Source: a virus. Taken from it: a stretch of DNA of 23,166 bases. The position numbers and the translations under genes were made by a program. The notes beneath the pieces were generated by a model that was not told where the DNA came from, did no database searches, and saw only the letters and a program-made list of their open reading frames with translations. Positions 7,350 to 21,860 of this stretch are shown one piece after another (the first letter of the stretch is position 1; every line of letters begins with the position of its first letter). The stretch is taken from IMG/VR virus record IMGVR_UViG_3300031565_000393, positions 1 to 23,166 of that record; one strand, written 5' to 3'.

Positions 7350-7607
7350 ATGCCCAACTTTAGAAAATTTTTAAACTATCATAAAGCTCTGGATAATTTT
7401 AAAAAAGATTATGGAAGTGGTAGAAGATTACCCTCTAATGAAATAAGTCCAGAAAAAATAGAATATTATATAGATTATGAATATCTTAAGGATGAGTTTC
7501 CAATAGATAGAACAATGAGGTGGGCAACTACTTCTACAGGTCAAAACTATTGGGAGAAATTAAATGCACACTATAGAAAATATAAACTTAATGATAAACT
7601 TAAATAA
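7350..7607 (+). CDS. Small hypothetical protein, second of a tandem paralogue pair
   Basis: 85 residues. The same frame of conserved positions as the preceding gene is visible: F-R-x-F-L-x-Y near the start, a Leu and Tyr about 8 and 15 residues later, and W-x-x-T-S-x-G-x-x-Y-W-E-K-L before the C-terminus. The end is basic (HYRKYKLNDKLK). It starts one base after the previous stop and its 3' end overlaps the primase gene. The function is unknown. A small DNA- or protein-binding module is possible because it sits in the replication block. Confidence 0.7.
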   Translation: MPNFRKFLNYHKALDNFKKDYGSGRRLPSNEISPEKIEYYIDYEYLKDEFPIDRTMRWATTSTGQNYWEKLNAHYRKYKLNDKLK

Positions 7608-8604
7608 AAAGGATCTTACAGAAGAAAATCTATTTAAATTTATTACTGAATTCGATGTTTTTGATTATTATATTAAAGATTTTGAACTTCATACTGTGTT
7701 TAATAGTCCTTTGAGAACAGATCGTAGTCCTAGTTTTACTGTATTTAAATCTGATGAACATAATAAACTATTTTACAAAGATTTTGGTACTGGTGACAGC
7801 GGTGATTGTATTGCTTTTATTAGGAGACTATTAGGATTAGGATATGTACAGGCATTACAGCAAGTAGTGCGTGACTTCAGTCTACAAAATGAATTTATTG
7901 ATAATATTCCTAAAGGTACAATAATAACTGGATTTAGTCCTAATACATTTATTAAAGGAATTGCTACAGAAGATATCAAAGCTAAGCAAAGAAGTTTTAT
8001 TCAAATTCTTCCTAGACTTTGGAAGAAATATGATTTACAATTTTGGGCTAACTTTGGAATATCTCAACCTACATTAAAGAAATTCTGGATACAACCACTA
8101 ACATACTTTTTTATAAATGGTCACATATTCACAGCAGATAAGTACTGCTATGCTTACATTGAATTAAAAGATGAAAGTATTACTTATAAAATATATCAAC
8201 CTTATAGTAAGGATAGGAAGTGGATAAGTAATCATCCTAAAGGTGCTCACCAAGGTTACAGATTGTTACCTAAAAAAAGTAATATTCTAATTATTACTAA
8301 ATCTCTTAAGGATGTTATGTCTTTATATGAAGTTATGGCAGTTGCTAGCATAGCTATTCAAAATGAAAGAATAGTTATAAAGGATACTGTTATGGAAGAG
8401 TACATGAAAAGATTTAAAAGAATAATTGGATTCTTTGATAATGATAGTACTGGTAAAGAACTTAGTGAAGTCTATGTTGATAAATATGGAATAGAATGTA
8501 TTTGCAGTCCTTTTGAAGACTCTAAGGACTTTAGTGATATTGTTAAAAATAAAGGTAAAGAACAAGCAGAAACAACATTTTTACAATTAATAAATCCAAA
8601 CTAA
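7564..8604 (+). CDS. DnaG-type primase with TOPRIM domain
   Basis: 346 residues (337 if the second ATG at 7591 is used, which would shorten the overlap with the upstream gene from 44 to 17 bases). Numbered from 7591, residues 38-92 resemble the DnaG zinc-binding region in pattern (NSPLRTDRSPSFTVF, then DFGTGDSGDCIAFIRRL), but the zinc-ligand Cys/His are missing. The TOPRIM fold follows: IITKSLKDVMSLYE at 234-247, where the usual catalytic Glu of the EG motif is replaced by Lys-Ser, and FFDNDSTGKE at 281-290 with the paired Asp. The protein would make RNA primers for the DnaB-like helicase and the family A polymerase. The altered residues either reflect a known phage variant or weaken activity. 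Context strongly supports primase. Confidence 0.85.
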   Translation: MHTIENINLMINLNKKDLTEENLFKFITEFDVFDYYIKDFELHTVFNSPLRTDRSPSFTVFKSDEHNKLFYKDFGTGDSGDCIAFIRRLLGLGYVQALQQVVRDFSLQNEFIDNIPKGTIITGFSPNTFIKGIATEDIKAKQRSFIQILPRLWKKYDLQFWANFGISQPTLKKFWIQPLTYFFINGHIFTADKYCYAYIELKDESITYKIYQPYSKDRKWISNHPKGAHQGYRLLPKKSNILIITKSLKDVMSLYEVMAVASIAIQNERIVIKDTVMEEYMKRFKRIIGFFDNDSTGKELSEVYVDKYGIECICSPFEDSKDFSDIVKNKGKEQAETTFLQLINPN

Positions 8605-8613
8605 ACATTGATT

Positions 8614-9324
8614 ATGAAAAGAAAAATTGGAATTGTCGGCTGGAAAGTCGGTGAAAATTCATTTGGGGTAACTATACCCTATTTAAACTTTTTTAAGGAA
8701 TATGGTGAGATAGTTACTATTATGCCTTGGTCAGAAATACAAGAATTTGATCTAATAGTATTACCCGGTGGCCCAGACATTAATCCATTAACTTATGGAG
8801 CAATACCTGATTTATATTTACAGAAGTCTTGTCCATATCGTGAAAGTTTTGATAGAAACTTTCTTCCTGAGTATATATCTCAAGGAACTCCTATATTTGG
8901 TATTTGTCGTGGTATGCAAGCAATAGCCGTACATTTTGGAGCCCAACTGTATCAGGATATGTATCATGAAACTAATAGTCCTGAAAAAAGAATGGAACGA
9001 GTTCATCCATTAGAATTTGATAGAGAGGCCGCTTCTATTCTTAATCTTAATTATGGTAAAGATAAGTTTAAGGTTAATTCTTTACATCATCAAGTGATTA
9101 AAGAAGAAACTTTATCTAGTGAGATTAGAGTTATAGCAAAGCATCCTTCTTGTAGTTGGGGAGGAATTGAGGTTATAGCCCATGTTGATCTTCCTATTGC
9201 CGGAGTGCAGTATCATCCTGAAGAATTTGGATTTGATGAAGTATCCGATGTTATAATTCCAAGACTATTAGAAAAGAAATCAATATTTAGTATAGAAACA
9301 GTTAAAAACATAATATCAGAATAA
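8614..9324 (+). CDS. Class I glutamine amidotransferase-like hydrolase (peptidase C26)
   Basis: 236 residues from ATG 8614 (a TTG at 8608 is also possible). It has the class I glutamine amidotransferase triad: nucleophile Cys98 in FGICRGMQ, and His201 and Glu203 in GVQYHPEEF. LPGGPDINP (50-58) and LHHQ (158-161) are characteristic of the C26 branch, which includes gamma-glutamyl-GABA hydrolase (PuuD) and gamma-glutamyl hydrolases. These cut gamma-glutamyl amide bonds and need no partner synthase. It is the first gene of the amidoligase cluster, overlapping the next gene by one base (TAATG). In this setting it could trim or recycle gamma-glutamyl-linked intermediates. The reaction type is well supported and the substrate is unknown. 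Confidence 0.9.
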   Translation: MKRKIGIVGWKVGENSFGVTIPYLNFFKEYGEIVTIMPWSEIQEFDLIVLPGGPDINPLTYGAIPDLYLQKSCPYRESFDRNFLPEYISQGTPIFGICRGMQAIAVHFGAQLYQDMYHETNSPEKRMERVHPLEFDREAASILNLNYGKDKFKVNSLHHQVIKEETLSSEIRVIAKHPSCSWGGIEVIAHVDLPIAGVQYHPEEFGFDEVSDVIIPRLLEKKSIFSIETVKNIISE

Positions 9325-9737
9325 TGGAAAAAATATTAGTAGCAGTTTATGGCAGTTTAAGAAAGAATCTAGGCAATCATTCTTTAATTGAAGATTCTAA
9401 GTATCTTGGAGAAGAATGGACAGAGGATGGATATACAATGATATCACTCTCGGCATTTCCTGGAGTATATGAAGATGAAAGTGGTGGTAAAGTTAAGATT
9501 GAAATTTATGAAGTTGATTCTTATACTGCAGCAAGATTAGATATGCTTGAAGGGTATAGTGGAGAAGACAGCTCCCGTAATTTCTATAATAAGAAAATTA
9601 TTGAAACTTCCCATGGTCCTACATATATTTATTTTATAAATGATAGTTATCGTGGCAGAAATAATATTGTAGAGGGTGGAGATTGGACAGAATTTTATAT
9701 GAACGAAAGAAAACAAAAATATGCTACCAAGAGTTAG
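9324..9737 (+). CDS. Gamma-glutamylcyclotransferase-like protein (GGCT/AIG2 fold)
   Basis: 137 residues. The hallmark YGSLR at 9-13 forms the substrate-binding loop, and LDMLEGY (72-78) carries Glu76 in the place of the catalytic Glu. The family converts gamma-glutamyl amino acids or gamma-glutamylamines to 5-oxoproline plus free amine. The length matches single-domain members. It overlaps the C26 gene by one base and the ATP-grasp gene by 17, so it is clearly in the same unit. In predicted amidoligase systems this fold is a repeated partner and is thought to remove or cyclise gamma-glutamyl links. The exact substrate is not visible from the sequence. Confidence 0.88.
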   Translation: MEKILVAVYGSLRKNLGNHSLIEDSKYLGEEWTEDGYTMISLSAFPGVYEDESGGKVKIEIYEVDSYTAARLDMLEGYSGEDSSRNFYNKKIIETSHGPTYIYFINDSYRGRNNIVEGGDWTEFYMNERKQKYATKS

Positions 9738-10512
9738 ATCAGTACAAATTAGAACAAAAAATCCAAGTGCTATTCCATTACGGAGAAGTATTTCAGTTCC
9801 TGGTAGAAGTATAGTAAGACTAGGATCTCAGACTCCTACTAATAGGGCATTTCCTAAGTCATATGGAGTATATCCTATTAAAGAAGTTAATACTGTTGAA
9901 TCAATATTGAATTCTAGAGATAAACTTAGGATGAAGGATTGTTTTGCAAAATATAGTACTGAAATACCTCAAGCTCAATGGTGGGAACTGAAAGATATTC
10001 CTGACAATGCTTATCCTAATCTCCCCTATCCTCTTGTAGCCAAAAGAGTGGTTGGATTTAAGGGGCATGGTATGTTCTTAGTTAATAATGAGCAAGAGCT
10101 TAGAGATAACATTTCCATTATTAGAAGTGGTAGATTTTTAGAACATTTTTGTAATTTTGCTCGTGAGTATAGACTACATTGTACTCAGAATGAATGTTTT
10201 ATGGCGTGGCGTAAGCTTCGTAAAGAAGGAAGTAAAGAACGCTGGTTCTTCAACTCTTCAAATTGTAATTGGGTTAGTCCAAAACACGAGTTGTTTGATA
10301 CCCCTAGTAATTGGAGTAGTATGGTTAGTTCATCAATAAATGCTATGAGAGCAGTAGGATTAGATATTGGTGCAGTAGACGTAAGAGTCCAATCTAATAG
10401 TAAGGCAGATCCTGCCTATATTATTTGTGAAGTTAACAGTGCCCCTGCTCTTGGAGATAAAGGAGTACAAATTTATAAAAATATAATACATAAACTATTA
10501 ATAAATAAATAA
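9721..10512 (+). CDS. ATP-grasp ligase (RimK-like fold)
   Basis: 263 residues. The ATP-grasp fold is visible: nucleotide-binding Lys in PLVAKRV (Lys108), the glycine-rich loop VGFKGHGM (111-118), the hinge acid at FLEHF (Glu141), basic residues REYRLH (148-153), and the metal-binding Asp220 (GLDIGAVDV), Glu237 and Asn239 (ICEVNSAPAL). Such enzymes activate a carboxylate as an acyl phosphate and join it to an amine, giving an amide or peptide bond. The first 45 residues are basic and Pro/Ser/Arg-rich and look disordered, which is unusual for the family and could bind nucleic acid or a partner. It starts 17 bases inside the upstream gene and is followed after one base by the 467-residue unknown gene. 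Confidence 0.88.
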   Translation: MLPRVRSVQIRTKNPSAIPLRRSISVPGRSIVRLGSQTPTNRAFPKSYGVYPIKEVNTVESILNSRDKLRMKDCFAKYSTEIPQAQWWELKDIPDNAYPNLPYPLVAKRVVGFKGHGMFLVNNEQELRDNISIIRSGRFLEHFCNFAREYRLHCTQNECFMAWRKLRKEGSKERWFFNSSNCNWVSPKHELFDTPSNWSSMVSSSINAMRAVGLDIGAVDVRVQSNSKADPAYIICEVNSAPALGDKGVQIYKNIIHKLLINK

Positions 10513-10513
10513 A

Positions 10514-11917
10514 ATGTCAGATACCTCGTATTTTATATGTAATGCAGACAAAGCAGAAAAAGATTCTGATAATCTTTCGGCTTATTTCCAAAAAGCAGGA
10601 TGTTGTTCAGGCATCAGAGATTGGGTTAATAACTCTTATTTTTCTGTAGTAAGAAAAATAGACCTTACTGTAAATCATAAAGTGTATGAAAGTTGGATTG
10701 AAACATTAATAGAAAATAACTTTCCTATTACTGAATTTAAAGAAAATGATCTTATTCCTAAAGAAACTGATCTTTTTAGTGAAAAGACAGTAACAAAGAA
10801 TAAAATAGCTCAGTATGCTAAGCATCCTAATTATAGGGATCTTCTTGTTTCAATAGAGAAAAGTATCACAAAAGGCAATAAAATATTTGTAAGAGGTACT
10901 GATAGAGGAGAAGATCTTTACTATTGGACTGCTACTTCAATGAAAAAAGGCCAAATTATTGGAGTTGATAATAGTTTAGGATTAGTTACAGTTAAAATTC
11001 TTGAACATGATCTTGATTTATTGCATGGTGATTCTCATGATGTAGAACTTCAGGTGTTTAATGATTATGATAGTAATATTCCAATGATTTCTGAGTTAGA
11101 GCTTGGTGAAGTTAAGGTTAAAAAGCCTGAAACTAAGTATCTTGATGGATATCTAATAAAAGTTGATTCTACTAATCTTTCTTCTAAAGAAGTACTTGCT
11201 GTCCATTCTTTAATTAGATATGGTTGGCATACTAATTATACTAACTTTATTGATAACTTCTTTACAGTTAAGAAAGCTGTTCCTGAGGCTACTTTCTTTG
11301 AGTTATTACTCATGGTAAGTTTTGCAGGAAATTATTCTGGATATCATAGCATTTTTGAACCTAATAATAAAGGTGGTTTTATGCCTTCATCCAAAATTGT
11401 GAAGAATTTAAACAGTAGTCCAGACAATATAAATGGATCTGTATATCAGGAACCTAAGTTAAAAGACTTACATGCTAATGCTATTAAGTTTCTTAAGGCA
11501 GGAAATTGGAGGAAAGGATATGAAGATATGCTTGTTGCTTCTTATGGTAGTAAGAATAAAGAGCTTAGAACTATTAAAGCCCTTTCTGATTTTGGTCAAC
11601 TTACTAAAAAAGTAGACTATACCATTATAGATGAGAATTATAGTTCTTATAAAGTAACTGCAGATGATTTTTCATTTCGTTGGTATAAGAAAGAGAGATT
11701 TAGTACTCCTAAAATTATAACAGATTTTAAAGAGCCAAAGCCTGAAGACCAAACTGCTGAAGCAATGAGTGAAGAAAGTTTAATTAGAAGGGGAGCCGCT
11801 AGACCCCTCATCAATAAAGAATATCCTCCTTACCCCAGTGCTGGTCCAAGAGTAAGAAAAATAACACTGGAAGAATCATGGAATGGGCATATTAAAGGTA
11901 AAACTTCCAATCAATAG
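10514..11917 (+). CDS. Large unknown protein in the amidoligase cluster (467 aa)
   Basis: 467 residues with no family I recognise. It begins MSDTSYFICNADKAEKDSDN and CysCys at 29-30 follows soon after. The middle is mixed alpha/beta with aromatic-rich helices (FFELLLMVSFAGNYSGYHS). The last 65 residues are proline- and charge-rich and look extended (RGAARPLINKEYPPYPSAG) with an end of WNGHIKGKTSNQ. It sits between two C-N ligase genes with a one-base gap on the left and a 12-base gap on the right. Two ideas fit: it is the acceptor or carrier modified by the ligases, or a structural partner of the complex. Neither is shown by the sequence. Confidence 0.7.
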   Translation: MSDTSYFICNADKAEKDSDNLSAYFQKAGCCSGIRDWVNNSYFSVVRKIDLTVNHKVYESWIETLIENNFPITEFKENDLIPKETDLFSEKTVTKNKIAQYAKHPNYRDLLVSIEKSITKGNKIFVRGTDRGEDLYYWTATSMKKGQIIGVDNSLGLVTVKILEHDLDLLHGDSHDVELQVFNDYDSNIPMISELELGEVKVKKPETKYLDGYLIKVDSTNLSSKEVLAVHSLIRYGWHTNYTNFIDNFFTVKKAVPEATFFELLLMVSFAGNYSGYHSIFEPNNKGGFMPSSKIVKNLNSSPDNINGSVYQEPKLKDLHANAIKFLKAGNWRKGYEDMLVASYGSKNKELRTIKALSDFGQLTKKVDYTIIDENYSSYKVTADDFSFRWYKKERFSTPKIITDFKEPKPEDQTAEAMSEESLIRRGAARPLINKEYPPYPSAGPRVRKITLEESWNGHIKGKTSNQ

Positions 11918-11929
11918 AGAAAATAGTAT

Positions 11930-12754
11930 ATGTTTAAACTTGAAACAGTAGGATCAGATCCAGAATTCTTTCTATTTAGTGAAGATAATGCATTTCCAGC
12001 TATAAGATTTACCTCAGGTACTAAGACAGTACCTGAGGAAATCAAGCCCGGATTTTCACTACAGAGAGATAATTTATTAATAGAAGGAAATATTCCACCA
12101 AGTAGAACTAAAGACGAATTTGTTAGTAATATATTATTTATTAAAGACTACATTCGTTCACGAGTAGAGATTAAGTCTCTTAAACTTGTATGTGCTGATT
12201 CTGCTAGATTTATGCCCAGATATCTCAGAATTCCTGAGGCTCGTGAATTTGGGTGTGATCCTTATAAGCTTGCTTGGAGAGGAGGAAAAACTGCAGAAGC
12301 AGATGATTTGTCTAGAATTTCGGAAAGGGTAGCCGGATTTCATATTCATTTAGGGTATGATTGGGAAGAGCTTCCTAAAAATCGTGCAGATGTATGTATT
12401 GCAAAAGCATTTGATATGTTTGTAACTGTTCCTTCACGAGAAATTCATTCAGATAGAACTAGAATGCGTTACTATGGTAGATTAGGTTCATATAGAGGTA
12501 AATCTTATGGAATTGAATGTCGTTCATTAGGAGGATATTTTCTTAATGATGAATATTTACCATGGGTATGGGACAGAATTCAAGATATGTCTAAATATTT
12601 AAATACAATTTCTAAAGAGGCATTAAATAAATTATCTACTTTAGGATTGACTTTTGCTCAGGCTAATTATGCTAATATAACAGGACTGCTTGACGATTCT
12701 GTATATGAAAAATATGAAGTTAAAAAACTAGAAAAAATATATGTTAGTATTTAA
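11930..12754 (+). CDS. phiEco32-like COOH-NH2 ligase (glutamine synthetase-fold amidoligase)
   Basis: 274 residues. The pattern is that of the phage COOH-NH2 ligase type 2 group: GSDPEFFLF at 8-16, EFGCDPYKLAW at 106-116, AGFHIHLG at 135-142 and the basic/Arg-rich block YGRLGSYRGK (182-191) followed by ECRSLGG (196-202). The family has the glutamine synthetase catalytic fold, where His, Glu and Arg bind ATP, metal and the acyl phosphate, and is predicted to join a carboxylate to an amine. The gene overlaps the class II amidotransferase gene by 14 bases, an arrangement also described in phiEco32-type phages. A perfect 11-bp inverted repeat lies near the start of this gene (12012-12038). Confidence 0.85.
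   Translation: MFKLETVGSDPEFFLFSEDNAFPAIRFTSGTKTVPEEIKPGFSLQRDNLLIEGNIPPSRTKDEFVSNILFIKDYIRSRVEIKSLKLVCADSARFMPRYLRIPEAREFGCDPYKLAWRGGKTAEADDLSRISERVAGFHIHLGYDWEELPKNRADVCIAKAFDMFVTVPSREIHSDRTRMRYYGRLGSYRGKSYGIECRSLGGYFLNDEYLPWVWDRIQDMSKYLNTISKEALNKLSTLGLTFAQANYANITGLLDDSVYEKYEVKKLEKIYVSI
12012..12038 (+). repeat. Perfect 11-bp inverted repeat inside the COOH-NH2 ligase gene
   Basis: CCTCAGGTACT (12012-12022) and AGTACCTGAGG (12028-12038) are exact inverse complements around the loop AAGAC. The arms are more GC-rich than the surrounding gene. In mRNA this would be a stable hairpin around codons 28-36, close enough to the start to matter for translation. Confidence 0.7.
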
Positions 12755-14765
12755 TATAATAATAATTGCATTAATTTTACATACATTATTCTCTAAACAT
12801 AATACTGTATTATCCTGTGGGTTATTTGCCTTTATAGGTAATAATGCTAATAGATTTAACTGGGATAGATTTAATTATCTTGGTGCAGCAAATGATGATA
12901 GAGGTGGTGATTCATGTGGAATTGTTACTCCAGACTTTTTTAAGTATGGAATGGGACCAGAAGCTAGATATGAGAAATTCATTATTAAAGCAGATCAAAA
13001 TCCTGAAGGTAAGTATAAGATAGTTTTGGGACACACTAGAAAAGCATCTATTGGTGCAGTAGATCTAAACCATGCTCAACCTTATATTTTTACTTCTAAG
13101 TCTAGGATAGTTAAAAGGATGAAGAAGAAAGATCCTATACTTTCTAAATTTGTAGACAGAAATGCCGCTAAAGATACTCTTGTATTTGCAGGAACTCATA
13201 ATGGTACAATTAATAACTATAAAGAGCTTGCATCCCAATATGGCATTAACTGTTTAGACAAAAATGATAGTGGTGTAATAATGGAAATCCTTTTTAAGTA
13301 TGGTACTAATGTACTTACTGAGTATGCAGGAACTGCTGCACTTATTTGGCATAATTTTGCAGAAAATTGTTCTTATGTATTTAGAGGTAGTAGCCCTATT
13401 TATAGTAAGAATGCTGTTGCTGTAGAAGAACGTCCTTTATTTGCATATGTTGAATCTGATAATAATACTTATTTTTCTTCTACAGAAGACAGTTTAAAAT
13501 TTATTGGAGGAAATAAAGATTCTGTTCTAGAAGTTGATGCTAATTATTTGTACAAGATACAGAATGGAAAGATCACTGGCAAAATAGAAGTGGATAGATC
13601 TGTAATTCCTCAAAAAGAATCTACAGTTACTACTAGCTCTGGTAGCAGAAATGCTTATAAAGCAAATGAAGATCTTTATGGCAGTGAATGGAGTAATTGT
13701 CATGGTTATGGAAAATCTAATATTCTTTATCAGAAAGACGTAACTGAAGAATATATAGGTGAGTACAAACTAAGTAAAAGAGCTATAAGTGGAAGTAAGT
13801 TGCATATTATAAATGAAGTTAAACCTTATATAGCTGCTATAGATACAAATAGTATTTTCTTCTGGAGAGGTAGATATATGTTTTGTGAAGTGTTGGCACA
13901 AGGAGTTATACATATTAGTCATTGGGGTAAAAGAATAACCCCAACTGAACGAGGTGCAAGGCCCTTCTTTTTTATAGATGGAGTTATGTTAGTTGATAGA
14001 ACAGCTTATGAAGAAGGTTTAAAAATTATTGCTGACTTTAAGGGCACTGAGAAAGAACTTGCTAGAAAATTAGCTCCTTTATCAGTATATCCAGTACATT
14101 CATACTTCAAAACTAATGAAAGAAAGCTTGATTTCCAAGATTTCTTTAAGCCTAATGATGCTTATGTAGAACATAGGGAGTCTGATAGTACTAGAGTTAT
14201 GGCAGGAAGAGTTCATTTTACTGGAGAGTTTAATCCAGTATTTTCTAAAAGAATCTATATTGTTAGAAATGGTGATTTAAAAGGAATTTCTGAAACTGTA
14301 TTTGCAAAGACTCCTAATGAAGAGTTTGGTTCTATTGAGAATCCTAAGAATAAGCCATTCACAGGTAAAATTATTGCAATACCTCAGGTTACTGAAGAGT
14401 ATCCAGACTGTCCTTGTTATAATTGTAAGGACGCAGAATCTAATCAATGTACTAATTGTAATCCACTTGATGATTATCTTGCTGAGTGGAAAAAGTTTAA
14501 TGAGCTTCCTGAGAATAAAAGAACTGATAATAAGTTGGCGTTATCCCCTGCTGAAAGTGATGTAGCATATGATGCTGCTTATCGTGAGGTATATGATAGT
14601 CAGTTAAAGACTATTATTAGTGACTTTTCTCAAGCAATGCAAGAGGCTATAGAGGAATTATATACTATGGGACCTGTAGATGCTTCTACTGAACTTGAAG
14701 ACATTTTTAATGTTACTAAAAATACGTTAATTAATTTTGAAGATAAACACTTGAGTAAATTCTAA
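12741..14765 (+). CDS. Class II (Ntn) glutamine amidotransferase with hydrophobic leader and Cys cluster
   Basis: 674 residues. Residues 26-220 carry the class II glutamine amidotransferase signature: Cys26 in CGLFAFIG, RGGDSCGI at 54-61, GHTR at 97-100, and HNG at 153-155 (Asn154/Gly155 as the oxyanion hole). Class II enzymes need the nucleophile Cys at the mature N-terminus, and here 25 mostly hydrophobic residues precede it, so processing is implied, as known for PurF and glutamate synthase. The domain would release ammonia from glutamine. Residues 300-674 are unrecognised. They include a possible zinc site with Cys557, 559, 562, 570 and 573, and an acidic C-terminus. The gene overlaps the amidoligase upstream by 14 bases and the second amidoligase by one base (TAATG). 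Confidence 0.85.
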   Translation: MLVFNIIIIALILHTLFSKHNTVLSCGLFAFIGNNANRFNWDRFNYLGAANDDRGGDSCGIVTPDFFKYGMGPEARYEKFIIKADQNPEGKYKIVLGHTRKASIGAVDLNHAQPYIFTSKSRIVKRMKKKDPILSKFVDRNAAKDTLVFAGTHNGTINNYKELASQYGINCLDKNDSGVIMEILFKYGTNVLTEYAGTAALIWHNFAENCSYVFRGSSPIYSKNAVAVEERPLFAYVESDNNTYFSSTEDSLKFIGGNKDSVLEVDANYLYKIQNGKITGKIEVDRSVIPQKESTVTTSSGSRNAYKANEDLYGSEWSNCHGYGKSNILYQKDVTEEYIGEYKLSKRAISGSKLHIINEVKPYIAAIDTNSIFFWRGRYMFCEVLAQGVIHISHWGKRITPTERGARPFFFIDGVMLVDRTAYEEGLKIIADFKGTEKELARKLAPLSVYPVHSYFKTNERKLDFQDFFKPNDAYVEHRESDSTRVMAGRVHFTGEFNPVFSKRIYIVRNGDLKGISETVFAKTPNEEFGSIENPKNKPFTGKIIAIPQVTEEYPDCPCYNCKDAESNQCTNCNPLDDYLAEWKKFNELPENKRTDNKLALSPAESDVAYDAAYREVYDSQLKTIISDFSQAMQEAIEELYTMGPVDASTELEDIFNVTKNTLINFEDKHLSKF

Positions 14766-16207
14766 TGGAAGGAACAAAAATTGTTACTACCTTTGATGGT
14801 ACAAAAGCACCGCGAAGAAAGTGCCGTCATATACATGGTAAATACTATGAAATGAATCGCCAATGTTTTAAGGTGGGCGAGAAATATAATAGAATAAATA
14901 ATGGTAAGATAACTCTTGACCATGAGAATAGAAAATATGTTCTAAAAGGTACTACAGGGTTAACTTACGGTGTTGTAGGAAGAAATGATGATGATAGTTG
15001 GAAATATGGTTATTTTAGCCCTAACATTACAAAAAATGTTAGGTTAGAGCCAAAAGGAATGTCTGGGGAGAGATGTTTATCAGAAGATATTGCTACTAAG
15101 TTGGGGTATGCTGAAGTCATATCCACTGGAGATTTTATTGACCTTAAGCAGTATCGTGGATCTGAGAAGAAAGATGTTCAAGAGTATATAACTCAAAAGA
15201 AGACTCAGCCCAGAGAATTCTATTCTTTTCCAATTCATTATGGAGCTGCTCCATTGATCAGAACGTTTGATGAGTATTTTAAGTATTTTGAGCCTTCTGG
15301 AAGACATATTCCTAGAAATATAGAACATAATATTAGAAGATTTACTTTTGGAATAGAGTATGAAACTGCTCGCGGTACTATTCCTGAAAGACTTCTGTAT
15401 AAAAACGGTTTAATTGCTTGTAGAGATGGTAGCATTGGAGGATTTGAATATGTAACCATTCCTATGTCTGGTCGTAAAGGTCTGCAAGCTATACAAAATC
15501 AATGTGAATTATTACAAAAATATTGTGTAATGGATCATTTATGTTCCTTACATATTCATCTTGGAGGATATCCAATTAGTAAAGAGTCCGTAGTGGCTAT
15601 TTATAGATTGCTGGTACAACTTCAAGATGAATTATACACAATGTTTCCACACCACTACAGAGATACTAGCTATTTTAAGAGAATGAATTATTGTGGCTCT
15701 CTTAAGGCAGTAGGAATGGCAAGTGGTATTGAAGGTGCTTTTGAAAGGATCTATGAAATTCTTACTAATGGTAGTAGTAGATTTCATGGATTTAATGGTG
15801 ATCCACATCCTATGGACACAAGTGGAGAACATAAATGGAATATCTCTCCTAGGTATAAATGGGCATCATTGATTCCTTTAATTTTTGGTGGTAGAAATAC
15901 TGTAGAATTTAGAATGCATACTCCTACTAAGAATCCTGATAAGGTTATTAACTGGTTATTTATTATATCAGCTATTTTATCATATGCTATGGATAATATG
16001 GACGAATTAACAAAGCCCAGGCTATCCAAAAATGTAAATTTGATGAATATCATCCAAACTACTTATTCTGATAGCTCCATGTCAAAAACTTTATGTGATT
16101 ATATTAATTATAGGAAAAAGCAGTTTTCAGATATGGATGATTCTTTGGGTGAGGCAGAAGTAACAAATGATGATCGTGCATTACCAAGTAGAGTTAAAAT
16201 AATATGA
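14765..16207 (+). CDS. Putative amidoligase (glutamine synthetase fold, Amidoligase_2 type)
   Basis: 480 residues. Residues 190-410 match the predicted amidoligase family: GIEYE at 196-200, CRDGSIGGFEYVTIP at 219-233, HIHLGG at 263-268, and NTVEFRMHTPT at 378-388. These His, Glu and Arg residues correspond to the ATP/metal-binding positions of the glutamine synthetase fold. Such proteins are predicted to couple amines to carboxylates in peptide-tag or cell-surface modification systems. The first 190 residues are an unrecognised extension with a basic start (APRRKCRHIH). It is the second GS-fold ligase in the cluster and overlaps its neighbours by 1 and 4 bases, ending the amidoligase block before the repair genes. 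Confidence 0.85.
   Translation: MEGTKIVTTFDGTKAPRRKCRHIHGKYYEMNRQCFKVGEKYNRINNGKITLDHENRKYVLKGTTGLTYGVVGRNDDDSWKYGYFSPNITKNVRLEPKGMSGERCLSEDIATKLGYAEVISTGDFIDLKQYRGSEKKDVQEYITQKKTQPREFYSFPIHYGAAPLIRTFDEYFKYFEPSGRHIPRNIEHNIRRFTFGIEYETARGTIPERLLYKNGLIACRDGSIGGFEYVTIPMSGRKGLQAIQNQCELLQKYCVMDHLCSLHIHLGGYPISKESVVAIYRLLVQLQDELYTMFPHHYRDTSYFKRMNYCGSLKAVGMASGIEGAFERIYEILTNGSSRFHGFNGDPHPMDTSGEHKWNISPRYKWASLIPLIFGGRNTVEFRMHTPTKNPDKVINWLFIISAILSYAMDNMDELTKPRLSKNVNLMNIIQTTYSDSSMSKTLCDYINYRKKQFSDMDDSLGEAEVTNDDRALPSRVKII
15020..15043 (+). repeat. Perfect 9-bp inverted repeat inside the second amidoligase gene
   Basis: CCTAACATT (15020-15028) and AATGTTAGG (15035-15043) are exact inverse complements with loop ACAAAA. 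It lies about 255 bases into the gene and could form a small mRNA hairpin, or be chance. Confidence 0.45.
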
Positions 16208-16875
16208 ATTGGAGTACACTAGTTGGAGATTGGGATAGGCCATTATTACCATTGTTTAAAACAGAATACTTTAATAATTTAATGAAGTATTTGCAAATTG
16301 CATATGACAGTGGTGTGGTCTACCCAGACCGTCAAAATATATTTAAGGCCTTTAAGTTATGTTCTTATAACAAACTTGGAATAGTGATATTAGGGCAAGA
16401 TCCTTATTTTACTAAGGGTCGTGCTACTGGGGTAGCATTTGCTAATCCGGCAGAAACTACTTCTCTTAGTCCCTCTCTTACTAGAATTAGAGATGCTATT
16501 GAGAAAGATATATATAATGGTCTTGCATTAGATTTTGACCCAACTCTAGAGAAATGGACTAAGCAAGGAGTGTTATTACTGAACACAGCCTTGACAGTGC
16601 GACAAGGTATTCCAGATAGCCATACAAAGCTTTGGAATCCTTTTACTGAGTATGTGATAGATTATCTTAATGATCGTAATAAAGGATTAATATATCTTTT
16701 GTGGGGCCAAGTCGCCCAGAGTTATTCAGATAGAATTGTAAGAAATGGTAACTGGGTATATCATTACACCCACCCCGCATACGCTGTACGAAACAGTACT
16801 GCTTGGGAATGTGATCATTTCTCTAAAGCAGCTCAAATTATGCGTACTTATAGTGATGTAGAATTAATATGGTAA
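16204..16875 (+). CDS. ung: Uracil-DNA glycosylase (family 1)
   Basis: 223 residues, the usual length for bacterial Ung. The water-activating loop is GQDPYF (64-69) with Asp66, the uracil-recognition strand is LLNTALTVR (125-133) with Asn127, and the catalytic His is His190 in THPAYAVRN. The last motif usually reads HPSPLSVYR, so the Leu-loop that enters the DNA minor groove is altered here. FSKA near the end matches the family. The enzyme removes uracil from DNA, which may protect an AT-rich phage genome from cytosine deamination or misincorporated dUTP. It overlaps the amidoligase by 4 bases (ATGA) and the RusA gene by 7. Placement beside RusA and an exonuclease suggests a repair and recombination unit. 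Confidence 0.92.
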   Translation: MNWSTLVGDWDRPLLPLFKTEYFNNLMKYLQIAYDSGVVYPDRQNIFKAFKLCSYNKLGIVILGQDPYFTKGRATGVAFANPAETTSLSPSLTRIRDAIEKDIYNGLALDFDPTLEKWTKQGVLLLNTALTVRQGIPDSHTKLWNPFTEYVIDYLNDRNKGLIYLLWGQVAQSYSDRIVRNGNWVYHYTHPAYAVRNSTAWECDHFSKAAQIMRTYSDVELIW

Positions 16876-17270
16876 TTTTTAGTATTTATATACCGGGGGA
16901 TGTTCCATCCTCTAAAAATTCTAAGGTTTGGACAGGTAGATATTTGGTGCATTCCAAAACTGCTACTAAATACATCAAGCAAACTAACTCTATATTTTCT
17001 AATAAGAAGATATTGAAAAGTTTCGCAGATGCTATTACTAGCATTGAACCACCTTATAAGATCTTATTCACCTTTATTAGAGGTTCTAGGCGTAGATTTG
17101 ACTATGTTAACATGGCTCAAATGCCTTTAGACTTAATGGTAAAGCATGAGTGGATTGTAGATGATAATGCGGATTATGTCATACCTATATTCAAACAGTA
17201 TTTATACAGGAAGGAATGCCCCGGTGTTATAATTTCGATAGAAAAAAATGAAGATAACAGGACAATATAG
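16869..17270 (+). CDS. RusA-like Holliday junction resolvase
   Basis: 133 residues, typical of the RusA family (about 120). The N-terminal strand and turn VIFSIYIPGDVPSSKNSKVW resembles the IPG-x-P-x-x-K opening of RusA. The catalytic region RRFDYVNMAQMPLDLM (75-90) with Asp78, Asn81 and Asp88, followed by IVDDNADYVIP (96-106), fits the metal-binding acids and DD motif. The enzyme cuts four-way DNA junctions during phage recombination and packaging. It overlaps ung by 7 bases and the next gene by 23. The first acid block reads FDYVN rather than RusA's DLDN, so exact catalytic residues need alignment. Confidence 0.75.
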   Translation: MVIFSIYIPGDVPSSKNSKVWTGRYLVHSKTATKYIKQTNSIFSNKKILKSFADAITSIEPPYKILFTFIRGSRRRFDYVNMAQMPLDLMVKHEWIVDDNADYVIPIFKQYLYRKECPGVIISIEKNEDNRTI

Positions 17271-17514
17271 AAAACTTATAGAATCTGTTTTTCCTATTGA
17301 GGAAGAGGTAGAACAGATTATAGGTTATCTAAAACAAGATAATTATACTGCTGCAAGAATCTTTACAGCAGATCATCTAGATGCACTTACTGAATTTGAA
17401 GACGATTATAAATATGAAAATGAGTCTATTCCTAAGTGGATTAATAAAGACAGACGAACTACTCAAAAATTATACGACTTTATAATGTTAGAATTGGAGA
17501 AACAATATGAGTAA
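17248..17514 (+). CDS. Hypothetical protein (88 aa)
   Basis: 88 residues, acidic and helical (EEEVEQIIGYLKQDNYTAAR; EFEDDYKYENESIPKWINKD). No family is recognised and there are no Cys or membrane segments. It overlaps the RusA gene by 23 bases and the exonuclease gene by 8, so it is translated with both. Its small acidic helical character would suit an accessory or inhibitor of one of these nucleases, which is inference from position only. Confidence 0.65.
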   Translation: MKITGQYRKLIESVFPIEEEVEQIIGYLKQDNYTAARIFTADHLDALTEFEDDYKYENESIPKWINKDRRTTQKLYDFIMLELEKQYE

Positions 17515-18541
17515 ATTATTTGAAGACTTACAAACATTTAGTACTGTTAAGGAGTATAGAGATTCTCCAGAATTGAATTATTCAATTCTAAAAGAAATGC
17601 AGTACAATCCATCTGTTATCCTAGGAACTGATGAGCATAAAGACAGTGATGCTATGAAACTTGGATCTATGGTGGATACTATACTAACTGAGCCTGATAG
17701 ATTTGAAGAACAGTTTCATATAATGTCTGCAACTAGACCTTCTGATACAGTTCAAGATATTATTCAAAGGTTAATTCAGTTGGGGTACAATCTTTCAGAT
17801 AGGCATGAAGTTATTGCAGAATGTAGGCTCGTTAATTATAGAAATAATTGGGGCAGTGAAAAACTTTATGAATATATAGTAGAAGAAGGAAGTCCTTATT
17901 TTGATGAACTACAGATTAGTAAAGAAAAGAGATTAGTTACATCTGAAGAGAATGAATTAGCCAACAGGATTGCTCAATTATTAGCTACTCATAAATGGAC
18001 ATCAGCATACTTTGGAACTGGTTATAAAGATATAGAAGTTATATTCCAGTTTAAATTCTATAGTAAGATAATGGGTGTAGATGTAAAGTCTATGCTTGAT
18101 ATTTTATTAGTTGATCATTTTGCTAAAACTATACAGCCTCTAGATCTAAAGGTTGGAGAACAGAACTTTAATATCAGTTTCTTCAAATTTAAGTGGTATC
18201 TACAGGGTGCTATGTATAGAGAAGCATTAGAAGTATTTAAAGATAATAGTAAGTTTAATAATTATAAAGTAGAAGAATTTAAGTTTATACATGTAAATAC
18301 TAAGCAATTAAACTATCCCACCATTTATAAAATGAATAATACATTTCATGAACACGCATTATTAGGATGGAAAGAAATGGGTAGAGAGTTCTTAGGTATT
18401 TATGAATTAATAGAAGATTTTAAATGGTACGAAGATTATCGAATTAGGACAGGTGCTACACACTTAATTCCTAGAAGGTTAATAGAGAATAATGGAGTAA
18501 TAGAATTAAATACTCCTAGACCAGATGATCTTCCTTTTTAA
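17507..18541 (+). CDS. PD-(D/E)XK exonuclease (RecE/Cas4-like phage type)
   Basis: 344 residues. The PD-(D/E)XK fold core is seen as EVIFQF (Glu177), SMLDILLVD (Asp198), LDLKVG (211-216, Asp213-x-Lys215) and a following Q-x-x-x-Y helix KWYLQGAMYREAL with Gln233 and Tyr237. An upstream MKLGSMVDTIL (50-60) sits where the family usually has a G-x-x-x-H motif, with Val-Asp in place of the His. Enzymes of this group degrade one strand of double-stranded DNA to prepare recombination, often with an annealing protein. It follows RusA and Ung genes and overlaps the upstream gene by 8 bases, consistent with a recombination unit. Confidence 0.85.
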   Translation: MSKLFEDLQTFSTVKEYRDSPELNYSILKEMQYNPSVILGTDEHKDSDAMKLGSMVDTILTEPDRFEEQFHIMSATRPSDTVQDIIQRLIQLGYNLSDRHEVIAECRLVNYRNNWGSEKLYEYIVEEGSPYFDELQISKEKRLVTSEENELANRIAQLLATHKWTSAYFGTGYKDIEVIFQFKFYSKIMGVDVKSMLDILLVDHFAKTIQPLDLKVGEQNFNISFFKFKWYLQGAMYREALEVFKDNSKFNNYKVEEFKFIHVNTKQLNYPTIYKMNNTFHEHALLGWKEMGREFLGIYELIEDFKWYEDYRIRTGATHLIPRRLIENNGVIELNTPRPDDLPF

Positions 18542-19409: not shown

Positions 19410-21860
19410 ATGGATAAAGAAAAAGTATGGAAAAGTACTCTTGAGTACTTTAGTGGGGATGATTTGGCTACACAAGTATGGATAGATAAATATGCATTAA
19501 GAAATGATGAGGAGATTCTTGAAGAGTCTCCTCTTCAAATGCATGAAAGATTAGCAAAAGAATTTTATCGTATTGAAAAGAAATATGATAATCCTATGTC
19601 TTATGAGGAAATTTTAAAATTACTACATGGTTTTACTTATTTTATACCTGCTGGCAGCGTTATGTTCGGTTGTGGTAACCCTTATACTTACAGTAGTCTT
19701 GCAAATTGTTTCGTTATTGGAAATGAGTTTGATTCTTATGGTGGAATTCTCAAAAATGATGAGGAACTGGTTCAGATCATGAAACGCCGTGGTGGTGTTG
19801 GAATAGATCTATCTCATTTGAGATTCTCTAGGGCAAGAGTTAATAATGCTGCTAGAAATTCTACAGGAGTTGTGTCTTTTATGGAAAGGTATTCTAATAC
19901 TACTAGAGAAGTAGCACAGGGAGGCCGTCGGGGAGCATTAATGCTTACATTAGATGTTAGACATCCAGATATTATGGATTTTGTTGACATTAAGAAAGAT
20001 TTAAAGAAAGTTACAGGGGCTAATATCTCTGTAAAAATTACTGATGAGTTTATGAGGGCTGTTGAAGCAAATGAAGAATTTGAAACTAGCTTTTATATTC
20101 ATGATAAGACTGAAGAATTTAAGAGTCCTATACGTAAAGTGTTTCCTGCAAGAGACTTATGGAATAAAATTATAAATAATGCATGGGAATCTGCAGAGCC
20201 CGGTATTCTATTTTGGGATAAAATATTAGCTGAATCCCCTGCAGATAGTTATACTGGATTTAGAACACATGGAGTAAATCCTTGCGGTGAGGTTCCTCTA
20301 TGTCAATATGATAGTTGTAGATTAGGATCAATTAATCTTTATTCTTTTGTAAAGAATCCTTTCTCGAAGAAAGCTTGGTTTGATTGGGATAATTACCATA
20401 AGGTAATAATTGATAGTCAAAGACTAATGGATGATCTTATAGATTTAGAGGAAGAGCGTATTGATGCTATAATAAAAAAGATTGATTCTGACCCTGAACC
20501 ACCAGTTATGAAGTTTGTAGAGAAGTCCATGTGGCAGAGAGTTATTCACAAGCTCGTAGAAGGCCGTAGAACCGGTCTTGGGGTCTTGGGACTAGGAGAT
20601 GCTTTGGCAGCGTTAGGGAAGACTTATGGCACTCCTGAGGCTACCAAATTAGCAGAGAAGATGGTTAAGAGATTAGCCAAGTATAGTTATCAATCTTCTA
20701 TTATTATGGCAGAGGAACGTGGACCATTTCCTAGATTTCATCCAGACGGCGATTTTAACTCTCAATTTACTAAAAGAATGCTGGATGTTATTGATGATGA
20801 TTACAAAGATTTGTGGAAACATCATGGACGCAGAAATATTGCTAACTTAGCAATAGCTCCTACAGGTTCTTTAGCTATACTAGCACAGACTACCTCAGGG
20901 GTAGAACCATTATTTCAAAGATCCTACATACGTAGGAGAAAGTTAGAGGAAGGGAATCCTAATATCACATTTGTAGATGATAGTGGTGATTCTTGGGAAG
21001 AATATCAAATCTTTCATAAGAAGTGGCAATTGTGTATGGATACAATGATAGAAGAAGATCCAAAATCATATTTTGAAGGAGAAAACTCTCCTTACACAGG
21101 GGCTACTGCAAATGAAATAGATTATCTTGAGAAAATCAAGATGCAGGGTAAATTACAACAATGGATAGATCATAGTATTTCCATTACTCATAATGTACCT
21201 CAAGAAACAACAAAAGAACAAATATCTGAAATTTACTTAAATGCTTGGAAATATGGATGCAAAGGTGTTACAATATATAGAGAAGGCTCTAGAGACGGAG
21301 TCCTTATTAAAAGTGAAAACAAACATAAGTCCTCATTCCCTGAGGTCCATGCTCCCAGAAGGGATAGAACTTTACCCTGTGACATCTACTACCCAACGAT
21401 CAAGGGAACGCAATTCGTGGTTTTGGTTGGCCTCTATGAACAAAGGCCGTATGAAATCTTCGCGTTTAGGCAAAACGGAGTCAAATTGTCCAAATCTTTT
21501 ACAGGAGGATTCATTACTAAAGTTAAACGAGGATATTATAGTTTATTAGATAAAGATAAAGAAGTTATAGTTGATAATCTTATTGATAAATTTGAATTAC
21601 CAGTAGAAGAGTTTGCAACTAGAATGATTAGTACAGCTCTTAGACATGGTACACCTGTTGCTTTCGTAATGGATCAATTAGATAAAGCTCCTGCTGAAAC
21701 ATTACAAGACTATAATAAAGTTGTAGCTAGAGTACTTAAGAAATATGTACCTAATGGTAATAAGGCTAGTGGACATACTTGTTCTGAATGTCATAGCAAT
21801 AATTTAATATATGAAAATGGTTGTATTTTCTGCACACAATGCGGATATTCAAAATGCTAA
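19410..21860 (+). CDS. nrdJ: Adenosylcobalamin-dependent (class II) ribonucleotide reductase
   Basis: 816 residues, the length of long single-chain class II enzymes. Core residues are visible: Cys100 in SLANCFVIG, the radical-site block Asn290, Cys292 and Glu294 in NPCGE, Cys303 in CRLGSINL, and the phosphate-loop APTGSLAILAQ. The C-terminal part contains a TSCPD-type domain (around 645-700) and a Cys-rich tail (791-816; Cys791, 794, 805, 808, 811 and 816) typical of NrdJ. The enzyme reduces ribonucleotides to deoxyribonucleotides using cobalamin, independent of oxygen, which suits anaerobic gut or sediment hosts. No NrdA/NrdB pair is seen here. The DNA from about 21331 to 21490 is much more GC-rich than the rest of the gene. 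The stop overlaps the next start by 7 bases. Confidence 0.93.
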   Translation: MDKEKVWKSTLEYFSGDDLATQVWIDKYALRNDEEILEESPLQMHERLAKEFYRIEKKYDNPMSYEEILKLLHGFTYFIPAGSVMFGCGNPYTYSSLANCFVIGNEFDSYGGILKNDEELVQIMKRRGGVGIDLSHLRFSRARVNNAARNSTGVVSFMERYSNTTREVAQGGRRGALMLTLDVRHPDIMDFVDIKKDLKKVTGANISVKITDEFMRAVEANEEFETSFYIHDKTEEFKSPIRKVFPARDLWNKIINNAWESAEPGILFWDKILAESPADSYTGFRTHGVNPCGEVPLCQYDSCRLGSINLYSFVKNPFSKKAWFDWDNYHKVIIDSQRLMDDLIDLEEERIDAIIKKIDSDPEPPVMKFVEKSMWQRVIHKLVEGRRTGLGVLGLGDALAALGKTYGTPEATKLAEKMVKRLAKYSYQSSIIMAEERGPFPRFHPDGDFNSQFTKRMLDVIDDDYKDLWKHHGRRNIANLAIAPTGSLAILAQTTSGVEPLFQRSYIRRRKLEEGNPNITFVDDSGDSWEEYQIFHKKWQLCMDTMIEEDPKSYFEGENSPYTGATANEIDYLEKIKMQGKLQQWIDHSISITHNVPQETTKEQISEIYLNAWKYGCKGVTIYREGSRDGVLIKSENKHKSSFPEVHAPRRDRTLPCDIYYPTIKGTQFVVLVGLYEQRPYEIFAFRQNGVKLSKSFTGGFITKVKRGYYSLLDKDKEVIVDNLIDKFELPVEEFATRMISTALRHGTPVAFVMDQLDKAPAETLQDYNKVVARVLKKYVPNGNKASGHTCSECHSNNLIYENGCIFCTQCGYSKC
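19509..19533 (+). repeat. Near-perfect 11-bp hairpin early in nrdJ
   Basis: GAGGAGATTCT (19509-19519) pairs with AGAGTCTCCTC (19523-19533), with one G-T pair, around a 3-base loop TGA. It starts about 100 bases into the reductase gene. It may influence early translation or RNA stability, or be chance from an acidic Glu/Ser/Pro-coding stretch. Confidence 0.45.

Follow-up and report, generated by a model that had tools for sequence, protein, structure and literature searches.

The cassette in the window and its active sites

We analyzed a 23,166-base virus fragment from IMG/VR (the window, that is, the whole stretch of DNA) and in it the seven open reading frames (ORFs) at 8614-16207, which encode a predicted phage amidoligase cassette. 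All seven ORFs form one run on the same strand, overlapping or abutting one another, and Pfam and PHROG profiles gave their order as a C26 gamma-glutamyl hydrolase, a gamma-glutamyl cyclotransferase-like protein (GGCT, of GGACT type), an ATP-grasp ligase, a 467-amino-acid (aa) protein, a COOH-NH2 ligase, a class-II glutamine amidotransferase (GAT-II) and Amidoligase_2 (Table 1). A primase gene lies directly upstream of the cassette, and genes for a uracil-DNA glycosylase (UDG), RusA and an exonuclease lie directly downstream. An earlier, sequence-only reading had proposed the unbroken run, the six enzyme identities and a location in a replication-region phage cluster, and all three proposals were borne out. 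In particular, profile searches placed the COOH-NH2 ligase, Amidoligase_2 and the ATP-grasp ligase in amidoligase or ATP-grasp families, the assignments on which that reading hinged.

Active-site conservation was scored against 84-110 relatives per enzyme, and the conserved residues were kept in all six window enzymes. The Cys/His/Glu triad of C26 (C100, H203 and E205, numbered from a TTG start at 8608; the ATG at 8614 is the other candidate start) was kept in 96-97% of 110 relatives, and Glu76 of GGCT was present in 91% of 92. Residues K68, E149, R151, H153, K165, D220 and E237 of the ATP-grasp ligase were found in 99-100% of 107 relatives, as were D10, E12, K32, D47, E52, R133, H138, R178, R189, E196 and R198 of the COOH-NH2 ligase among 97. 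For GAT-II, Cys26 was present in 99% and H98, R100, N154, G155 and D176 in 99-100% of 99 relatives, and for Amidoligase_2, E198, E200, D221, G222, S223, H263 and H265 were present in 100% and R383 in 98% of 84. Nothing in these sequences suggests decay of the cassette, which is probably complete and active.

The best solved relatives of C26 were Lin1909 (3fij) and the gamma-glutamyl-GABA hydrolase PuuD (6vtv), and GGCT has a fold relative in YtfP (1xhs). The COOH-NH2 ligase scored 23.1 bits against PF14395, just under the cut-off of 25, about 400 C-terminal residues of GAT-II were without any Pfam domain match, and profiles of the COOH-NH2 ligase and Amidoligase_2 gave no meaningful match to PDB sequences. 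A defense-model scan (PADLOC) of five cassette proteins returned only a weak 4TM-effector match, for Amidoligase_2 (E=0.002).

Table 1. Coordinates of the cassette and its borders in the window.
Feature	Position	Strand	Evidence
DnaG-type primase; left border of variable slot	7564..8604	+	PF01807 E=5.6e-8; aligns with crAss-like phage primases
C26 / class-I GATase-fold gamma-glutamyl hydrolase	8614..9324	+	PF07722 E=1.5e-32
GGACT/AIG2-type gamma-glutamyl cyclotransferase-like protein (GGCT)	9324..9737	+	PF06094 E=6.6e-18; phrog_2520 E=5.2e-29
RimK-like ATP-grasp ligase	9721..10512	+	PF08443 E=2.3e-6; phrog_2599 E=4.7e-24
U-family partner protein, 467 aa	10514..11917	+	E=7.9e-18, from an iterated profile that already includes this protein
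phiEco32-like COOH-NH2 ligase type 2 (GS fold)	11930..12754	+	phrog_3815 E=1.8e-43
GAT-II (Ntn fold)	12741..14765	+	PF13522 E=3.1e-10
Hydrophobic helix, GAT-II residues 3-17; predicted membrane anchor or pro-segment	12747..12791	+	
Codon of catalytic N-terminal-nucleophile Cys26	12816..12818	+	alignment
Amidoligase_2, second GS-fold ligase	14765..16207	+	PF12224 E=9.7e-8 (32.6 bits, cut-off 22); phrog_2443 E=1.4e-33
Uracil-DNA glycosylase family; right border of slot	16204..16875	+	PF03167 E=7.6e-15; alignment
RusA-like resolvase, small ORF, PD-(D/E)XK/exonuclease VIII-like protein	16869..18541	+	phrog_1682 E=2.2e-17; phrog_412 E=8.5e-20

The cassette is conserved among phages and is of a published kind

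Scans of IMG/VR with Amidoligase_2 and ATP-grasp alignments recovered more than 100 loci, whose genes follow a strongly conserved order: primase, GGCT, ATP-grasp, C26 or an unknown gene, COOH ligase, GAT-II, Amidoligase_2, UDG, RusA. Where an ATP-grasp locus had 7.5 kb or more to either side (43 distinct loci), GAT-II and Amidoligase_2 were both found in all 43, the COOH ligase in 42, C26 in 37 and GGCT in 35, and U, the family to which we assign the 467-aa protein (see below), was detected in 24, all on the same strand; the genes are thus kept together in related phages, in agreement with the sequence-only reading. The cassette was also present in phi14:2, cr108_1, Lbo-JY46, PaP3, 7-11, BUCT695, Bjorn and Bas86, its enzymes were rearranged in order in PaP3, 7-11, BUCT695, Vp_R1, Bjorn, CVT22 and Bas86, and in nearly all phages seen it was situated among replication genes. 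The cassette is complete in Bas86, where Bas86_0081 and Bas86_0082 are candidate U proteins by position alone, and at least its COOH ligase occurs in Bas88 and Bas93. The COOH-NH2 ligase gene of Bas86 is annotated as two pieces flanking an HNH endonuclease gene (L310:6481-7789), apparently an intron.

A seven-gene 'peptidoglycan modification cassette' has been described in PSA-HP1 and listed also for RIO-1, phiEco32, 7-11, PA11, tf, LUZ24, PaP3 and CW02 (PMC5498523, which cites Hardies 2013 and Iyer 2009 for it), and its proposed target is peptidoglycan side chains (PMC5498523, PMC10580990). The novelty implied by the sequence-only reading was therefore overstated: this kind of cassette is already known, and the additions made here are the U family, a fast-evolving partner with an invariant Arg, the GAT-II helix arrangement and the alternation of slot occupants, none of which was found published in the open literature searched, an absence that is itself weak evidence.

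The window set is almost certainly a cassette of this phiEco32/RIO-1 type, having a COOH-NH2 ligase, Amidoligase_2 and GAT-II together with ATP-grasp and GGCT in one run at a replication-gene position. The phiEco32, LUZ24-PaP3 and RIO-1-PSA-HP1 cassettes likewise hold these five together among replication genes, and several members have a glutamine amidotransferase-type hydrolase; however, the neighbors of their COOH ligase and GAT-II are ordered otherwise than in the window, and an extra protein of ~190-205 aa lies between both ligases. Phages phi14:2 and cr108_1 (Crassvirales, Steigviridae) share with the window the slot between primase and UDG and the core order ATP-grasp...COOH ligase-GAT-II-Amidoligase_2. 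Cellulophaga phage phi14:2 also resembles it in a hydrophobic GAT-II N-terminus and in the order from primase to exonuclease, but lacks C26 and any detectable U in the slot; the uncultured phage cr108_1 differs from the window in its two U proteins, in a GAT-II that begins Met-Cys and in the absence of a detected GGCT.

On these family assignments, the cassette probably ligates and hydrolyses gamma-glutamyl or isopeptide bonds. MurT-GatD, which amidates lipid II, and PuuA-PuuD resemble it in joining an amidotransferase to a ligase on a gamma-Glu carboxyl and in pairing a GS-fold ligase with a C26 hydrolase. However, GatD is a class-I amidotransferase that works with a Mur-type ligase, PuuA and PuuD act on putrescine in metabolism, and neither set has two GS-fold ligase families plus U.

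Such chemistry could serve auxiliary nitrogen and amino-acid metabolism, the enzymes channeling ammonia and glutamate for the infected host. GGACT and C26 come from families of gamma-glutamyl catabolism, and a role in nitrogen metabolism has been suggested for Phage-ZRK32, whose host showed increased growth when the phage was combined with nitrate or ammonium (PMC10945688). The ZRK32 result does not, however, separate single genes, and such a pathway offers no place for U and two GS-fold ligases. Furthermore, a scan covering 84,980 genomes of bacteria and archaea yielded nine COOH-ligase loci, all on contigs of metagenome-assembled genomes; these contigs are shorter than 50 kb and probably from phages, and most of the loci are accompanied by other cassette genes. 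This near confinement to phages is unlike that of host-derived metabolic genes and fits a phage-specific rather than a host-metabolic enzyme, and we consider a metabolic role quite improbable.

A hydrophobic helix precedes the catalytic cysteine of GAT-II

In gammaproteobacterial phages GAT-II starts Met-Cys, whereas the window GAT-II has a hydrophobic helix ahead of the Cys. No ATG, GTG or TTG stands directly ahead of its Cys26 codon, and the sole in-frame upstream start seen is the ATG at 12741, which adds 25 residues made up of the hydrophobic helix, a basic residue and L-S-Cys. This arrangement (helix, usually K/R, then L-x-Cys) was found in 37 of 88 distinct scorable GAT-II proteins, the window's included, and the Leu at position -2 to the catalytic Cys was nearly constant. 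The other cassette proteins had no hydrophobic helix within their first 45 residues. An Ntn amidotransferase requires a free N-terminal Cys, which implies that a helix-bearing GAT-II would have to be cleaved. The parsimonious reading is that GAT-II of the helix type is membrane-anchored or membrane-matured, and this would favor a substrate near the membrane.

The 467-aa protein belongs to a fast-evolving partner family

The 467-aa protein had no match in Pfam, a single weak match of unknown function in PHROG and no tblastn relative among 50,697 phage records. In metagenomic loci, proteins of 255-424 aa occupy its place, and iterated profiles unite it with these counterparts as the U family (57 distinct proteins longer than 150 aa); by plain BLASTP it matched its relatives at an E-value of only ~5e-4. 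An Arg (R235 in the central helix of the 467-aa protein) was invariant in 56 of 56 members, and 40 of 56 have a C[FCYWR] motif close to their N-terminus, the 467-aa protein having the version AGCCSG and exceeding most relatives in length through insertions. U evolves fast and is present in one to four copies. Its genes are located near DnaB or in the interval from ATP-grasp to C26/COOH ligase, and in many cassette loci no member was detected.

An AlphaFold2 model of the 467-aa protein was poor (pLDDT 50) and was not used for fold search. The model of a U relative from locus L039 (pLDDT 80, pTM 0.83) had its best Foldseek matches in cr108_1 and another crAss-like phage, followed by Aeromonas phages 4_4572 (prob 0.98, E=0.007) and LAh_6 (prob 0.94, E=0.035), and in the PDB it matched nothing at E<=0.001. 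Phage 4_4572 is itself a cassette carrier, and its COOH-NH2 ligase is surrounded by four proteins (266-322 aa) that bear a C[FYW]G-type motif (L142:2604-7008), which suggests repeated duplication of the partner gene. Against a set of 12 proteins, the U profile matched 4572_137 (E=1.4e-6) and 4572_136 (E=2.4e-4); an hhalign comparison of U with the partner proteins of gammaproteobacterial phages was not significant (4% probability). U is probably of the same family as the paralogs beside the COOH-NH2 ligase in gammaproteobacterial phages.

Alternative occupants of the primase-UDG slot

A survey of what lies between primase and UDG took in 189 distinct primase loci, of which 59 were not long enough for a judgment. 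The amidoligase cassette occupied this slot in 67 loci, an E1/JAB operon in 27 and both in none of these 94, and others held a GHKL ATPase pair or something else; the loci were pooled from several scans and most of the 94 came from scans that used cassette genes as seeds, so that these proportions are not frequencies. The E1/JAB-type operon, five genes including ThiF/E1 and a JAB-like protein, fills the slot in crAss001, cr112_1, DAC15, cr111_1, cr85_1 and cr128_1. In crAss001 (gp75-gp79, L136:20583-25805) it reads X1-X2-JAB-E1/ThiF-X5, an arrangement conserved in six gut Steigviridae; there the ThiF/E1 protein matched PF00899 (E=8e-16) and the JAB-like protein PF14464 (E=4.9e-4), and X1 and X2 had no match in Pfam or NCBIfam. 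A ubiquitin-like fold for X1 (gp79), guessed by eye, was unsupported by Pfam, NCBIfam and PDB. The third occupant is a GHKL ATPase (HATPase_c_3) with a protein of ~330-400 aa (five pairs checked). Two such loci (L238:11004-14659 and L273:11430-14973) encode an ATPase of 728-736 aa and a protein of 333-367 aa, with a small ORF ahead that matches part of X1.

The occupants are clearly mutually exclusive. ThiF was found genome-wide in none of 26 amidoligase records, the COOH ligase genome-wide in none of 23 E1 or GHKL records (in a run that had no positive control), and no ThiF or JAB family was found by Pfam among the window cassette proteins. In five records, the slot or cassette has, at a distance of a few kb on its upstream side, a paired nicotinamide/nicotinate phosphoribosyltransferase and PRPP synthetase, possibly an NAD+ salvage set (L138:1307-4048, L139:1-1879, L140:1-2140, L007:2005-4568 and L004:9736-13945).

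This alternation bears on whether the cassette tags proteins. In that case its ligases would join glutamate or a peptide to some protein of the host or the phage, U would serve as the acceptor or adaptor, and C26/GGACT would be the editing hydrolases, which would make the cassette a non-homologous counterpart of ubiquitin-like conjugation. The crAss001 operon shares with the cassette its slot and a predicted ATP-dependent carboxyl activation plus hydrolase, but no homologous proteins, E1/ThiF and JAB standing in place of GS-fold and ATP-grasp ligases, and the U profile showed no relation to proteins of the E1-type operon. Consistent with tagging, the operon uses the slot in six crAss-like phages but never together with the cassette, and the fast evolution and multiple copies of U are as expected for a target-specific partner. 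However, the GHKL ATPase occupant indicates that the slot is not reserved for conjugation systems, so that a common function of its occupants is not to be assumed, and neither a tag peptide nor a degradation partner was found. Moreover, the COOH-ligase count comes from the run that had no positive control, and the cassette-seeded scans leave the slot proportions without weight in this matter. We regard protein tagging as possible, though doubtful. It is unlikely that the slot is a dedicated protein-conjugation site where the cassette replaces E1/JAB non-homologously for Pup-like or glutamylation-like tagging via U, two GS-fold ligases and an ATP-grasp ligase; the slot swap was dropped as proof of a conjugation function once the GHKL ATPase occupant appeared.

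Envelope-peptide remodeling as the favored reading

We tentatively favor gamma-glutamyl or isopeptide remodeling at the inner membrane, the target being peptides of murein precursors, mainly because of the GAT-II helix and the published predictions. The chemistry, step order, membrane location, role of U and substrate, which we infer, would be as follows. C26 and GGACT would cut gamma-glutamyl bonds, opening or editing the substrate, which would most likely be the stem peptide of a membrane-bound murein precursor. On this peptide, the RimK-like ATP-grasp ligase and both GS-fold ligases would add amino acids or form gamma-glutamyl or isopeptide amides in ATP-dependent steps, with ammonia provided from glutamine by GAT-II, which in the window lineage would begin as a membrane-anchored pro-form whose cleavage must free the catalytic Cys. 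The U-family protein may be a phage-specific adaptor or acceptor. The change in the stem peptide would give the infected cell an altered envelope, which might for instance counter superinfection, a proposal repeated in PMC10580990.

Several observations weigh against such a target. The cassette is without a murein ligase, Mur-family or transport gene, and its swap partners in the slot, the E1/JAB operon and the GHKL ATPase, are not wall enzymes. The other 51 of the 88 GAT-II proteins have no anchor and start Met-Cys (Cys as residue 2), which means that a membrane location is not a general trait. Furthermore, no substrate experiment was found in the literature searched, in keeping with the earlier statement that no phage substrate is proven.

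A different kind of target is also indicated by the E. coli phage subfamily of Bas86, the Gordonclarkvirinae of the BASEL collection (Bas86-93), which is reported to be remarkably resistant to restriction-modification with no pathway known for it (PMC11990801). The cassette might accordingly protect phage DNA, through an amino-acid-type base modification or a modified restriction enzyme, and both the presence of cassette genes in Bas86, Bas88 and Bas93 and the location of the cassette among replication genes are in line with this. However, a dCTP deaminase and a nucleotidyltransferase were named as the likely source of that resistance (PMC11990801), and the window cassette contains no base hydroxylase, hydroxymethylase or base transferase. 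We therefore consider a DNA- or restriction-related role improbable.

The cassette is one of the widespread multi-enzyme sets carried by phages. The U family, the GAT-II helix, the exclusive slot occupants and the full set in Bas86 make the old prediction accessible to experiment, as Bas86 infects E. coli K-12 with restored O16 O-antigen (PMC11990801) and envelope remodeling can be separated there from its rivals.

Flanking genes and placement of the window

Around the cassette, the window encodes an SF2 helicase, DnaB, an AAA protein, primase, UDG, RusA, an exonuclease, a ribonucleotide reductase and DNA polymerase A. Comparison with crAss-like phages revealed gene content and order of Crassvirales type in this replication region, and in crAss-like phages the slot is flanked on its right by the block of RusA, small ORF and exonuclease VIII-like gene. 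No capsid, portal or terminase hallmark gene was identified in the 23-kb window, so the placement in Crassvirales rests on the replication genes; judged by these, the window comes from the replication region of such a crAss-like phage. The ribonucleotide reductase at 19410-21860 (816 aa) has a weak C-terminal TSCPD match (PF12637, under the cut-off) and is likely of the B12-dependent type.

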